Positions 49,217 to 55,919 of a stretch of DNA of 64,000 nt are shown here, piece after piece. Location: the NCBI GenBank assembly GCA_000752215.1, contig CCFG01000014.1:1-64000 (forward strand), written 5' to 3'. Within the stretch, counting starts at the first letter, position 1; each line of letters opens with the position of its first letter. The translations under genes were made by a program, and so were the position numbers. The notes below the pieces were generated by a model that was not told the DNA's origin, did no database searches, and saw only the letters and a list, made by a program, of their open reading frames with translations. The DNA comes from a bacterium MS4 (lineage in GTDB: Bacteria; Bacillota; Clostridia; Oscillospirales; Acutalibacteraceae).

Positions 49217-49259
49217 TGCCGGTGTGATGGAATTGGCAGACGTAGTGGACTCAAAATCC
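49217..49259 (+). pseudogene. truncated 5' half of tRNA-Leu (attachment-site remnant)
   Basis: 43 bp identical to the start of the complete tRNA-Leu at 49418, breaking off inside the 3' side of the anticodon stem. The following bases do not continue a tRNA. This is a duplication typical of site-specific integration at a tRNA gene. Confidence 0.85.
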
Positions 49260-49417
49260 GTTATCCCCATTTTTTCCGGAAGTAGATTAATACGCCACGA
49301 ACCCGCGTGGTTCCTGATTTCCTAAAAAGTGAATAAACCATCTTGCTTTCAACATCCCTTACTTCCATCCCTTAATTATCTGAGGGCTGAATTTCAAGGA
49401 GATTTGAAAATAGATTT
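49260..49417. other. 158-bp segment between the partial and complete tRNA-Leu
   Basis: AT-rich DNA with one short hairpin (CCACG / CGTGG, 49296-49311). It has no coding gene except the antisense 3' tail of the serine recombinase frame (stop at 49372). It may be a residual element end. Confidence 0.4.
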
Positions 49418-50949
49418 GCCGGTGTGATGGAATTGGCAGACGTAGTGGACTCAAAATCCACCGGTAGCGATACCGTGCCGGTTCGAGTCCGGCCACCGGC
49501 ACCATCAATATGTACGCCGATTTCTACGGTGAAAGACCCGTCGGGATTGGCGTATATTTTTGTCACAAATTCCTGCACAATCCGCTTTGATTCAGTGTCC
49601 CAATGGTCCATAGCGCGGTTTAACCGCGCTATTATTTTATCTGGATTAACTTTTTTTCCGTTGCTCTCTTTATGCTTAATTATGTCCTCCAGCTCACTTT
49701 TGCGGGTACGGAGCCGATCTATTTCATTCTGCAGCTCCGGAATATCCATACCGGAAATAACAGCCCTTACCCCATTTGCAATCTTCTTCAATATGTCCGT
49801 AAGTTCTGCTTTTTCTTTGGCACAGTCTGGTGCAGCCGAATTCACCGCGTCTGCAATCCGATTGGCGGTTTCCTTAAAATCGATCTCCAGTAGATAAGCT
49901 TTTAACTGCTGAACGACGAAGGTTTCTATCATATTAGCATTAATATTCTTCGCTTTACAATTGTGGGTACGATATTTATTACCGCACTCGTAATAACGGG
50001 TTTCACGCTTACTTCCGTCTTTACGGCGGTTAATGCTGGTATGCCCAACAAAGGTAGCTCCACATTCTACGCACTCAATCAGGCCTGATAAGAGATATTC
50101 CCGAGTCGCCTTATTTTCCGCTCTGCGATTTCTCTGAATCATTCTGCTTCGCACTCTCCCCCATGTTTCCATATCTATAATTGGCGGGATAACCCCCTCA
50201 ATTCTGATAACATTTGGATTAAGTTTCCCCCCAGCGTATTTTCTCATGATACGCATAGTGCGTTTGTTCCAGGTATATACCCCTATGTATCTCTCGTTTT
50301 GCAGGATGTCGCACAAGCTGTTTTTTCCTAGTGGGCTGCCATACTTCCCCGGCCTACCGTTAAGCTTGTCCACGATTGCATTGTAGCTTGCGCCGGCAGT
50401 GTATTCTTCAAATACAATCCGCACCGTTTCGGCTTCCTGCTCATTGATTACATACTTCCCGTCAATGACGTCATATCCCAGAGGGGGAAGCCCGCCGCAG
50501 AAAATTCCCTTCTTTGCCCTTTCGGCCGTTCCTGCAATCGACTTCTGTCGAGTATCAAGCACCTGATGTTCGCCGAGGCCAACGCTGATCAGTTCCACAA
50601 GGAAGTCATTCGGGTTTGTAATGTCCCCCAGCTTTTGCGTTGCAGAAATCACTTGGATGTCAAGACGGAGCATTTGCTTTCGGAAAGCAAACCAATCCCC
50701 TACATCACGGGAGCCTCTGGAAATATCGTAAATTATAACAGCATCAAACTCATGTCGGACCGCGGCAGCCACCATATCAATAAATCCTTGCCGGTCCATA
50801 TTGGTTCCGGACTCCGCCTCGTCGCTATAGAAAGAAACAATTTGAATACTGTTCTTTGCACAATACTCCTGAATCTTGTTAAACTGATATGCTATACTGT
50901 TTTCTGTCTGCTTATCAGTACTAAATCGTGCGTATGCAGCCGCTTTCAT
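49372..50949 (-). CDS. large serine recombinase (integrase of the element)
   Basis: This 525-aa site-specific recombinase catalyses integration and excision. The N-terminal resolvase domain has the nucleophile in KAAAYARFSTDKQ (Ser10) and IYDISRGSRDVGDW. A recombinase domain, a zinc ribbon (CVECGATF to YYECGNKYRTHNC) and a coiled-coil segment follow. ATG 50949 follows GGGGGC. The last 44 or so residues (GGRTRTGTVSLPVDFES...) are antisense to tRNA-Leu, so the natural C-terminus was probably replaced on integration. It marks the left end of the prophage. Confidence 0.93.
   Translation of the reverse strand: MKAAAYARFSTDKQTENSIAYQFNKIQEYCAKNSIQIVSFYSDEAESGTNMDRQGFIDMVAAAVRHEFDAVIIYDISRGSRDVGDWFAFRKQMLRLDIQVISATQKLGDITNPNDFLVELISVGLGEHQVLDTRQKSIAGTAERAKKGIFCGGLPPLGYDVIDGKYVINEQEAETVRIVFEEYTAGASYNAIVDKLNGRPGKYGSPLGKNSLCDILQNERYIGVYTWNKRTMRIMRKYAGGKLNPNVIRIEGVIPPIIDMETWGRVRSRMIQRNRRAENKATREYLLSGLIECVECGATFVGHTSINRRKDGSKRETRYYECGNKYRTHNCKAKNINANMIETFVVQQLKAYLLEIDFKETANRIADAVNSAAPDCAKEKAELTDILKKIANGVRAVISGMDIPELQNEIDRLRTRKSELEDIIKHKESNGKKVNPDKIIARLNRAMDHWDTESKRIVQEFVTKIYANPDGSFTVEIGVHIDGAGGRTRTGTVSLPVDFESTTSANSITPANLFSNLLEIQPSDN
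49418..49504 (+). tRNA. tRNA-Leu (anticodon CAA)
   Basis: An 87-nt complete cloverleaf: acceptor GCCGGTG pairs with CACCGGC (49494-49500), then discriminator A and an encoded CCA (49502-49504). Anticodon stem GTGGA/TCCAC holds the loop CTCAAAA with CAA at 49452-49454. A long variable arm (GGTAGCGATACC) fits class II Leu tRNA, and GTTCGAGTC is the T-loop. Confidence 0.95.
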
Positions 50950-50966
50950 TATAATATAGCCCCCTA

Positions 50967-50995
50967 TTGATTTTGGAGGGCTGAACTGGTACAAT
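50967..50995 (+). promoter_or_regulatory. promoter of a candidate small RNA
   Basis: TTGATT (50967-50972), 17 bases, TACAAT (50990-50995), on the plus strand, divergent from the recombinase. Confidence 0.6.
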
Positions 50996-51001
50996 ATGGT
51001 T

Positions 51002-51081
51002 GCGTGTTTATCGTACTGTCAGCCCTGCTGATGGTGAGCCGCTCGTTCCGGGTACCAGCCGGGGCGGGCGGCTTTTTTTTA
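51002..51081 (+). ncRNA. candidate 80-nt small RNA
   Basis: A plus-strand promoter at 50967-50995 and a strong intrinsic terminator delimit a transcript of about 80 nt. The terminator is a 15-bp stem from AGCCGCTCGTTCCGG and CCGGGGCGGGCGGCT, loop GTACCAG, followed by T8 at 51073-51080. No convincing frame with a ribosome site is inside. It is divergent from the recombinase and convergent with the lipoprotein gene, whose stop it touches. Prediction from signals only. Confidence 0.5.
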
Positions 51082-51645
51082 TCCTAACTTTGTAATATCA
51101 AAGTTCTTTGTAACTTTCTGCTCACTAAGACCTAGAAAATCCGTAACATCAGCTTCTATTGGAGAAGATGTATTTGAAAGTGCGAATGCTTTTTCGACCT
51201 CAAGCGAAACACCTTTTTTAATTTCACGAAGGCCGTCGTCTGTATTATAGGCTTTATCCTCGATGCTAAATGCGGGATCCAGCTGAACTCCATCTTGAAA
51301 CACTTGTTGGTTAAGAGCACCTTCAAAAGAGTTTGCATCATCGCTGTTATTTGTCCATTTATATTTTATAATAGCGACAGGTTTTGATTGATAATCTTTC
51401 GCTAATCTTGCAGACTCAATTGTTACACTATAATCTCCAATAGTACCACTGTCAGAATTTTGAACTTCAGATGCTGCTGAAGAAGCTGCGGCTATAGATG
51501 ACGCTGATACATCAGAAGACGGCGGCGGTGTCGAACTTTCAGATGTGGAACTCGAAGGGGATGAAGAACTAGTGGGGGTGCTTGAACAAGCTACTAAAGA
51601 TGCAGAGATTGCCGCAATTAAAATTAGTGCCAAAACCTTTTTCAT
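51079..51645 (-). CDS. DUF5067-type lipoprotein of the element
   Basis: This 188-aa protein has a signal peptide MKKVLALILIAAISASLVAC with lipidated Cys20, a Ser/Pro/Thr-rich linker (20-60) and a beta-sandwich-like domain (SVTIESARLAKDYQSKPVAI, VAIIKYKWTNNSDDA, VSLEVEKAFAL) matching DUF5067. It would sit on the cell surface. In a lysogen, such a gene near the repressor is often a moron that changes the host surface (inference). A 19-bp palindrome lies 17 bases upstream of its start. Confidence 0.85.
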   Translation of the reverse strand: MKKVLALILIAAISASLVACSSTPTSSSSPSSSTSESSTPPPSSDVSASSIAAASSAASEVQNSDSGTIGDYSVTIESARLAKDYQSKPVAIIKYKWTNNSDDANSFEGALNQQVFQDGVQLDPAFSIEDKAYNTDDGLREIKKGVSLEVEKAFALSNTSSPIEADVTDFLGLSEQKVTKNFDITKLG

Positions 51646-51661: not shown

Positions 51662-51680
51662 ATTGACAAAATTTGTCAAT
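51662..51680. promoter_or_regulatory. palindromic operator before the lipoprotein gene
   Basis: ATTGACAAAATTTGTCAAT is perfect apart from its centre base, and T/A flanks extend it to 21 bp. The half-site TTGACAAA also occurs in the switch region at 52651-52657 and as GACAAAA at 52612-52618, suggesting the same repressor. Confidence 0.6.
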
Positions 51681-51727
51681 AAGATATAATATTTTTAGAG
51701 AATTCCACGCCGGAATTTTTCATTTTG

Positions 51728-51758
51728 CCCCTTTCGCTATTCGCAGTAGCGGGAGGGG
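51728..51758. other. hairpin after immA-type gene
   Basis: CCCCT/AGGGG outer and CGCTA/TAGCG inner stems; no strong T-run on the minus strand. Possibly a weak terminator for the repressor transcript. Confidence 0.4.
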
Positions 51759-51763
51759 ATTTC

Positions 51764-52186
51764 TTATGCCAACTTTCTTTGCTTTGCTATGGTGTAGTAA
51801 TCCAAAGTTTTTTCAATAAATGGCTCCGGCATACCAAAATATTCAGCCAACTGCCAGCGCTCAGAATATCCGTCCTCCATAGCAATTTTTAAAGATTCAA
51901 ACGGTATGTATCTCTCAATCGCCCACCGGTTGGCCTTATATTCATGCTTCTCAATCAGGTCCAGCGGACTGCTAACCTTTTGCGTGCAACCAGTAGCGCA
52001 ATGCCCTAACTCGTGAGCTAATATGCCCTTGTACTTTGAAATAGTGTCAAAACAGGATAAATCTAAAAATATACCGTACTCTCCACTTATTTCTATAGTT
52101 GCCGCATCTGCAAAACCGATATCCTGAGTAAACAACTGTATGCCTCTGTTTTCAATATCCTTATACATAGCCGACAATTCGACCAT
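51764..52186 (-). CDS. ImmA/IrrE-family metallopeptidase
   Basis: This 140-aa protein contains the zinc-peptidase motif LAHELGHCATG (His58, Glu59, His62) and a conserved EYKANRWAIERYIP. ImmA-type proteases cleave the partner repressor to induce the element. The repressor gene lies 18 bases upstream on the same strand, the classical arrangement. Confidence 0.92.
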   Translation of the reverse strand: MVELSAMYKDIENRGIQLFTQDIGFADAATIEISGEYGIFLDLSCFDTISKYKGILAHELGHCATGCTQKVSSPLDLIEKHEYKANRWAIERYIPFESLKIAMEDGYSERWQLAEYFGMPEPFIEKTLDYYTIAKQRKLA

Positions 52187-52204
52187 TCCCCGTCCCCCGT
52201 TTTA

Positions 52205-52552
52205 TTATTTATCTTTATGCTCTTGACCCAGTTTAAACAGACGAGCCATTTCCAAAAGCCTCTGTTTGTTTTCTTCTGTAAGATCCTGCGTTTCTGCGTG
52301 AAGCGCATAAGTAAAATCGTCAAAGGTAATATCCTTGTCAGACTGAACAGAATCATCACCAAGTAATGTATTCAGTGGTACGCCCAGTTTATCCGCATAT
52401 TCATTTGCGACAGTAATTTTAGGAGTTCGCTGATTCTTTTCATACCTGCTGATTACCTGTTTTGATGTACCCAACAATTGAGCCAATTCTTCTTGTGACA
52501 TATTGCGGTCTAATCGAATTTGCTTTAAACGGTCACCAAATGAATTATTCAT
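52205..52552 (-). CDS. XRE-family phage repressor
   Basis: This 115-aa protein has an N-terminal helix-turn-helix (LKQIRLDRNMSQEELAQLLG, SKQVISRYEKNQRTPK) and a short C-terminal helical region, without a LexA-like peptidase domain, which fits ImmA-dependent cleavage. ATG 52552 follows AGGTGAT; a codon at 52561 is an alternative. It is divergent from the Cro-like gene across an operator region. Confidence 0.92.
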   Translation of the reverse strand: MNNSFGDRLKQIRLDRNMSQEELAQLLGTSKQVISRYEKNQRTPKITVANEYADKLGVPLNTLLGDDSVQSDKDITFDDFTYALHAETQDLTEENKQRLLEMARLFKLGQEHKDK

Positions 52553-52582
52553 TGTTATCACCTATTTTTCTTTGATGCTTAT

Positions 52583-52611
52583 ATTAAAGCATATTTTGTC
52601 ACCAATTTCAA
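52583..52611 (-). promoter_or_regulatory. leftward (repressor) promoter
   Basis: On the minus strand TTGAAA (52606-52611), 17 bases, TTTAAT (52583-52588). Confidence 0.55.
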
Positions 52612-52618
52612 GACAAAA
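52594..52618. promoter_or_regulatory. switch operator O1
   Basis: TTTTGTC and GACAAAA, inverted, with 11 bases between, cover the -35 of the leftward promoter. Confidence 0.6.
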
Positions 52619-52639: not shown

Positions 52640-52656
52640 TCACCAAAGTATTGACA
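52640..52656. promoter_or_regulatory. switch operator O2
   Basis: TCACCAAAGTATTGACA; its TTGACA is also the -35 of the rightward promoter. Confidence 0.6.
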
Positions 52657-52679
52657 AATTAAATGACAGATGATATCAT
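52651..52679 (+). promoter_or_regulatory. rightward (early) promoter
   Basis: TTGACA (52651-52656), 17 bases, TATCAT (52674-52679), driving the Cro-like gene and early operon. Confidence 0.65.
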
Positions 52680-55447: not shown

Positions 55448-55776
55448 TTCACTGGACACCCGAAGAACTCGCTGATATGGCCCGGTATGACGTGGAGATC
55501 GACGCACTCGATCATGTGGCCCCCGAGAATACAGCCGCTTATCTGCCTAAGAAATCGCCCCGTCTCAGTCCCCGGGCTGCGAAGAACAAACGGGAATATG
55601 AAAAAGCTTACCAGAAGACGCACCGGGAGCAGTATAACCAACGCCGCCGTGAATGGTATCAGCGAAACCGTACGGCGTATCTTGCTTCTTTAGCCGACCG
55701 CCGAAAGCAGAAAAAAGCCGCCTCAAGTGCTGCGAACACTCGAAACGGCCGACTTTATCAATCACCAACAGTATAA
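55444..55776 (+). CDS. phage protein, 110 aa, basic helical
   Basis: Starts at GTG 55444 overlapping the previous stop. MIHWTPEELADMARYDVEID opens it, then a long Arg/Lys/Gln/Tyr-rich helical stretch (EYEKAYQKTHREQYNQRRRE). Nucleic-acid binding is plausible from composition. No family recognised with confidence. Confidence 0.7.
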   Translation: MIHWTPEELADMARYDVEIDALDHVAPENTAAYLPKKSPRLSPRAAKNKREYEKAYQKTHREQYNQRRREWYQRNRTAYLASLADRRKQKKAASSAANTRNGRLYQSPTV

Positions 55777-55796
55777 CACAAAGGAAGGAATTGTCA

Positions 55797-55919
55797 ATGC
55801 CAGAACATTGTCCGATCTGTGCAAGCATCGATATCATTGCCGGCCGCTGTCAGCATTGCGGCAGCCCGGCCAAGAAAGGAGAGAACCATGAAAAACGTAA
55901 AGATGTCCGTCACGGATAA
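55797..55919 (+). CDS. small zinc-ribbon protein, 40 aa
   Basis: MPEHCPICASIDIIAGRCQHCGSPAKKGE: two Cys-x-x-Cys knuckles. AAGGAAGG lies upstream. It overlaps the next start by about 30 bases in another frame. Confidence 0.6.
   Translation: MPEHCPICASIDIIAGRCQHCGSPAKKGENHEKRKDVRHG

Follow-up and report, generated by a model that had tools for sequence, protein, structure and literature searches.

How the integrase is kept silent in lysogens of Clostridia, amid repressor genes that are expressed, is poorly known. The window analysed here, a stretch of 64,000 nucleotides from the Acutalibacteraceae bacterium MS4 (GCA_000752215.1, contig CCFG01000014.1, positions 1 to 64,000), poses this question at a single locus. 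Its surroundings are those of a prophage, with an exonuclease, an annealing protein and a DNA polymerase further to the right. On the minus strand, a cI-type repressor (52205-52561) and an ImmA-type metallopeptidase (51764-52186), which presumably form a lysogeny operon (51764..52561), share the orientation of the integrase, a large serine recombinase of 525 aa (49372..50949; Resolvase, Recombinase and Zn_ribbon_recom; integrase by PHROG). Directly upstream of the integrase, and again in its direction, lies a DUF5067 lipoprotein-like gene (51079..51645, minus strand). The integrase comes last in this row of repressor, ImmA, lipoprotein and integrase, such that transcription of the lysogeny genes would continue into it.

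An antisense RNA that is conserved and lies between the lysogeny genes and the integrase would be a concrete and testable answer. The initial annotation had pointed to a candidate, a small RNA divergent from the recombinase that might act on the recombinase, the lipoprotein or host messages. From the comparison of sequences across genomes, we put the probability at about 0.7 that this plus-strand RNA, the proposed target of which is the integrase, is a cis-encoded antisense RNA that represses it via a switch in its leader.

A candidate small RNA and its relatives

The promoter that had been proposed for this RNA, TTGATT and TACAAT separated by 17 nucleotides, is present on the plus strand at 50967-50995, with the -35 box at 50967-50972, the -10 box at 50990-50995 and a TGG preceding the latter; 9/12 positions match the consensus. 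Judging from the -10 box, transcription would start at about 51002, which gives an RNA of approximately 79 nt (51002..51080, plus strand); the initial annotation had put it at 80 nt. The predicted RNA has two hairpins, stem 1 at 51015..51035 (ACUGUCAGC-CCU-GCUGAUGGU) and an intrinsic terminator at 51036..51080 (stem 51036-51074, T8 51073-51080). The T8 is as had been described; for the stem, our scan counts 16 pairs where 15 had been given. The end of the sRNA touches the lipoprotein stop, as had been said: the lipoprotein reading frame ends at 51079, inside the T run. Judged from sequence and conservation, the predicted sRNA has its own promoter, lies on the strand opposite the leader of its proposed target and ends at an intrinsic terminator.

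The 82 nt from 51000 to 51081 fold considerably better than dinucleotide shuffles (z -5.58, 0/200 as low). Promoter-like sites number 15 in 4 kb, where 9.1 are expected, and the match of the window promoter is ordinary by itself; terminator-like sites number 9 against 4.2 expected. What lifts the sRNA locus above chance is its conservation, the motif matches alone being unremarkable. With Rfam 15 at the gathering cutoff, a tRNA was the sole hit across the window. Relaxing the search to E values up to 10 gave nothing credible at the sRNA locus, where the best weak matches were BcKCsr2 (24.5 bits, cutoff 40) and then ctRNA_pGA1 (21.5 bits, cutoff 45).

A blastn search with the 161-nt region returned a match in 14 of 300 genomes of the family, the window's own included, with 17 further loci. 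One of these (L014 in genome G101) matched with its terminator only and was removed, leaving 17 of the 18 loci in the MAFFT alignment (A1). Promoter, stem 1 and terminator are conserved in this alignment. Altogether 96.8% of the cells pair, both sides have changed in 13/23 pairs, and 0/500 shuffles reach any of the five measures, a test in which the relatedness among the loci is uncorrected. For stem 1, 97.4% of the cells are paired and 3/9 pairs have changed on both sides; for the terminator, the values are 96.3% and 10/14.

The initial annotation had recommended a covariance search for relatives beside serine recombinases, and had made conservation of promoter and hairpin in related elements its own test. 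Such conservation was found. The covariance model R1 matches in 59/398 genomes of the family and 13/394 of the order, and the model R2, which was built from 76 matches, in 27/391 of the class and 9/398 of the phylum; the window's own genome is counted in every one of them, and the searches of the wider groups also count some genomes of the closer groups. In an alignment of 76 sequences, which is fitted to the model, 96.9% pair, 22/22 pairs have changed on both sides and 0/500 shuffles come as far, again with relatedness uncorrected. Both helices of the predicted sRNA covary strongly. Furthermore, at 98/98 loci the plus-strand version of the predicted sRNA has the better fold of the two strands; loci found by a plus-strand model lean to plus-strand structure, and those found by BLAST agree with the plus bias.

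Of 110 R1 matches, we used 106, omitting L099 (three matches, in the same place as L034) and L068:7519. The 17-nt spacer is the best in 89/106 of these hits, a count biased by the fact that R1 itself contains the promoter. The analyses of the leader took the first 88 of the 106, and, minus the duplicates L068 and L019, 86 loci remained. Among these, 74 have a divergent open reading frame of more than 100 aa and make up the family set; the 12 others (L017, L039, L052, L076, L077, L080, L082, L094, L107, L108, L109 and L113) were omitted; in one of these, L017, the start resembles that of a serine recombinase. For the pairing tests, 24 of the 34 loci of the wider set were taken, chosen by eye for a divergent reading frame resembling a recombinase, and this choice is therefore not blind. 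At some loci at contig edges (e.g., L121), the assumed position of the match is probably wrong.

With these sets, the placement that had been noted for the window recurs, in that promoter, two hairpins and terminator of the putative sRNA are conserved beside recombinases. The gene that starts on the far side of the promoter, divergent from the sRNA, is nearly always a site-specific recombinase: it matches Phage_integrase in 53/74 and Resolvase in 14/74 loci of the family set, and in 14/32 and 8/32 loci, respectively, of the wider set.

Outside the family, the sequence of the sRNA changes wholesale and its architecture stays (e.g., L114, L115, L138), a pattern that does not point to a fixed target in the host; host messages as targets have no support. 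We consider it highly improbable that a prophage sRNA acts in trans on host mRNAs, for example via a C-rich CCCU segment, and that its antisense overlap with the integrase is incidental. The GUCAGCCCU segment, whose strong conservation in the closest relatives would speak for such an activity, turns over completely in other families, where the pairing with the own leader stays, and the placement beside recombinases is too regular. The lipoprotein could be a target only via its stop codon in the terminator. The recombinase is favoured, because the sRNA is antisense to the recombinase leader and because the competing hairpins of this leader are conserved.

Predicted competing hairpins in the integrase leader

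In the minus-strand leader, hairpin 1:2 has element 1 (51009..51026) as its 5′ arm and element 2 (50977..50996) as its 3′ arm. The sRNA covers element 1 over its full length and leaves element 2 uncovered. The 3′ part of element 2 doubles as the 5′ arm of a further hairpin, 2:3 (50958..50982, minus strand; AGCCCUCC / AGGGGGCU). The loop of 2:3 is the complement of the -35 box, and its 3′ arm holds the ribosome-binding site of the integrase. The sRNA promoter overlaps the recombinase leader in antisense, as the initial annotation described, and the predicted start at 51002 falls between elements 1 and 2, so that the ON arm is covered and the other arm is free.

What the comparison of sequences shows is the sRNA with its fold on the plus strand, its location next to recombinases and the predicted competition between pairings of the leader. 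For the switch that we propose, we infer that both transcripts exist, that they pair in the cell and in which direction this would act. In the ON fold of the leader, element 1 would pair with element 2; in the OFF fold, element 2 would pair with element 3, and the resulting hairpin would mask the ribosome-binding site in the window, and would be followed at other loci by a U run in the manner of an intrinsic terminator. The sRNA, with its predicted start in the loop of 1:2, is the complement of element 1 and of all leader sequence upstream of that element, and not of element 2. Upon binding, it would remove element 1 and free element 2, such that 2:3 closes and the integrase is off, while the repressor would stay on. 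The likely purpose would be to uncouple the integrase from the repressor genes that are read in the same direction.

In the window, the 1:2 duplex has an energy of -22.1 kcal/mol (0/300 shuffles as low) and the 2:3 duplex one of -14.9 kcal/mol, with a shuffle p of 0.073, which is above 0.05. At p<=0.05, 1:2 beats its shuffles at 63/74 loci of the family set, 23/24 of the wider set and 6/60 random window positions. The corresponding figures for 2:3 are 38/74, 14/24 and 3/60, the duplex test thus failing at 36/74 and 10/24 loci, and both hairpins do so together at 34/74, 14/24 and 0/60; in these shuffle tests, too, relatedness is uncorrected. Hairpin 2:3, which has the complement of the -35 box at its centre, reaches a median folding z of -2.2 over the 86 loci, and 63% lie below -1.5. 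The 5′ arms of 2:3 end in 65 different hexamers over these 86 loci. The 3′ arm is the ribosome site in the window and at many loci, and elsewhere a U run such as AUUUUU follows it.

How the two hairpins would compete can be computed by blocking the site of the sRNA. With this block, 2:3 pairing increases at 52 of the 74 loci and decreases at 2, and access to the ribosome site goes down in 34 and up in 5. The mean number of 2:3 pairs is 5.60 with the native leader, 8.83 with a shuffled upstream half and 10.45 with the sRNA site blocked, and at 62/74 loci the native upstream half lowers 2:3 pairing below that seen with shuffled upstream halves. The half of the leader that is covered by the sRNA therefore seems built to hold 2:3 open. 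For the window itself, the expected 2:3 pairs rise from 1.5 to 12.0 upon blocking, and 0/20 shuffled upstream halves give 2:3 pairing as low as the native one. Already in the absence of the sRNA, most of its ribosome site is predicted to be in pairs, the unpaired fraction being 0.12 in the free and 0.03 in the bound state.

Within the sRNA, stem 1 keeps G-U pairs, for example at two positions (G-U in 15/17, U-G in 10/17). These correspond to A-C mismatches in the leader and would leave element 1 free there, which fits the model.

In terms of folding energy, neither strand is preferred for hairpin 1:2 over the 98 loci (the minus strand is lower in 41, the plus strand in 54, and 3 are equal), and this element might therefore be an inverted repeat of the DNA. 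The conserved repeat would then be an operator or a recombination site, for instance for the recombinase or its directionality factor, and the plus-strand RNA would arise incidentally or act as a terminator that guards against antisense transcription; an integrase promoter that overlaps a recombination site is known in other prophages (PMC2951348). We regard such a DNA site as unlikely, since the module is found in front of both tyrosine and serine recombinases, which are unrelated and would not share one. Also, the spacing of the half-sites varies in alignment A1, the sequence of the repeat changes wholesale outside the family, and the body of the sRNA covaries as a plus-strand RNA.

With respect to the RNA switch in the leader, hairpin 2:3 is more stable on the minus strand at 61 of the 98 loci, on the plus strand at 31 and equally so at 6. 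For hairpin 1:2, the G-U counts favour the minus strand in the 36 best rows (14 vs 7 and 39 vs 11), and hardly do so for P1 in all 76 rows (37 vs 33). A variant layout was seen by eye at some loci, for example L045, L083, L086 and L088, where a GGGUGCAA-like element 1 has, beyond the terminator-like hairpin, UUGCRCCC as a possible partner in place of element 2.

A minus-strand promoter feeding the integrase leader was not identified. The plus-strand promoter spans this leader and faces incoming minus-strand transcription, and promoter and terminator could in principle block polymerase arriving from the lipoprotein gene, with the RNA having no role. That transcription interference of this kind accounts for the locus is very unlikely in our view, because it requires neither stem 1, nor the covariation of stem 1, nor the competing hairpins in the leader.

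Relation to known RNA controls

Phage P4, with the immunity conferred by its CI RNA, and lambda, with the retroregulation of int by sib, hold phage genes or int at a low level in lysogeny by means of RNA. Unlike the window sRNA, the P4 CI RNA is not encoded in antisense and is cut from the leader on which it acts; sib works through RNase III from a position downstream of int. A parallel to the antisense RNA proposed here comes from plasmids, where RNAI/repC of pT181 is an antisense transcription attenuator. In the general features of such attenuators (PMC3753616), as in our model, an antisense RNA that is short and carries a promoter and a terminator of its own meets a leader that can adopt two folds and drives it into the OFF fold. 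However, the target in pT181 is a plasmid replication gene and here it would be the integrase of a prophage or another integrated element. Furthermore, the OFF hairpin of the window masks a ribosome site and has no U-run ending, and the parallel is one of design. RNAII/repB of pMV158 is another likeness, in that an antisense RNA cuts translation of a key gene of a mobile element, as proposed here (PMC4485353), though its target gene and leader design differ, and the conservation beside recombinases has no counterpart in pMV158. The general principle of the antisense attenuator (PMC3753616, PMC7430163) matches the proposed switch. We considered the class of plasmid countertranscript RNAs for the sRNA and rejected it, since the proposed targets here are recombinases (53 + 14 of 74) and not plasmid replication initiators.

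For prophages, intS of KplE1 resembles our locus in that the integrase is low in the lysogen and is associated with a tRNA; the control there is by proteins (IntS, TorI) acting on DNA, in contrast to an RNA (PMC2951348). Candidate structured RNAs often near integrase domains were described in a human-microbiome study, e.g., HMP2_7457 with 67 bp from Firmicutes (PMC8040213), which is not known to have been given an antisense or switch mechanism. By its description, HMP2_7457 could be a piece of the sRNA module, and the structure may have been seen before without its function. A search of the open-access literature found no antisense RNA attenuator of an integrase.

Neighbouring genes and possible exchange between elements

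At 52/74 loci, an upstream reading frame of at least 70 codons reads toward the integrase and has its stop at most 15 nt from the end of the sRNA. The upstream gene varies from locus to locus: among 55 such reading frames, 9/55 encode M78 (ImmA-type) peptidases, and the other products include several HTH and S24 proteins, Abi_2, YoeB, ion channels and zinc-ribbon proteins. Together with the flanking recombinase, these gene types place the module usually between a lysogeny or cargo gene and an integrase. In eight genomes, an R1 module lies within 1.8 kb of 15/75 PF00589 and 4/73 PF07508 matches, which means that most recombinases in these eight genomes have no module recognised by R1; conversely, 7/26 modules there have no recombinase match nearby. 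Second copies of the module, with weaker scores of 25.7 to 38.1 bits, precede the cargo gene by which they are separated from the integrase module (L028:1999-2126, L031:2195-2317, L039:2467-2595, L072:1879-2003 and L073:10324-10449). The module is therefore not only for integrases.

As for the element itself, an identical integrase is found on an IMG/VR contig of 40,013 bases. Protein comparison gave relatives of the integrase at two genome loci and three viral loci. One of these (L021) is the same prophage, with an integrase that is 100% identical; another (L019) carries the module. Two (L022, L023) have no model match, and L020 was outside that search. The 161-nt region had no blastn match in the phage collection or in 72,556 plasmid records. 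With 3.5 kb as a query against phages, 19 records were hit, and, among the matches listed, all lie in the tRNA-Leu part.

In genome G234, three modules (L027, L015, L074) are 91-93% identical, and the integrases that they precede are almost unrelated (best 38% over 84 aa). Similarly, the window module, which stands before a serine recombinase, is nearest, with 87%, to one that stands before a tyrosine integrase. These two cases raise the tentative and rather doubtful idea that the sRNA-leader pair may be an exchangeable cassette of unrelated mobile elements, and that the sRNA of one resident element could silence the integrase of another with a similar cassette. This would be an RNA-based cross-element integration immunity, a counterpart of plasmid incompatibility. 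Counting against exchange, the nearest module shares the recombinase class in 56/73 cases. If the cassettes were to cross-react, resident elements could decide which newcomers integrate. If the antisense switch proves true, control of the plasmid type would extend to tyrosine and serine integrases alike, and anaerobic bacteria would be a source of RNA switches for their own use that are both natural and compact.

The plus strand carries a second promoter (51663-51690), a perfect TTGACA-16-TATAAT, and a terminator-like stem (51728-51758) in the gap that separates the stop of ImmA from the start of the lipoprotein gene. The place is of the same type as that of the main module. Nevertheless, we do not count 51663-51758 as a member, because R1 gives it only 14.6 bits (E 0.31) and both pairing tests fail (p 0.96 and 0.86). 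By eye, a TTGACAAAATTTGTCAA palindrome covers its -35 box (51663-51680) and resembles repeats near the repressor gene (52594-52616 and 52651-52679); palindrome and repeats are possible operators of the repressor. Another weak R1 match is seen on the minus strand at 55706-55813 (15.9 bits, E 0.17) and is mostly a terminator.

An exact search with 14-mers of the tRNA region (49381-49560, same strand) revealed no att repeat in the next ~42 kb. The tRNA-Leu (caa) gene region is at 49418-49504, and its first 43 nt (49417-49459) recur exactly 200 nt upstream (49217-49259). This repeat is likely the trace of an earlier integration. Since the integrase reading frame (49372-50949, minus strand) runs antisense through the whole tRNA-Leu, the last residues of the integrase are encoded by the complement of the tRNA.
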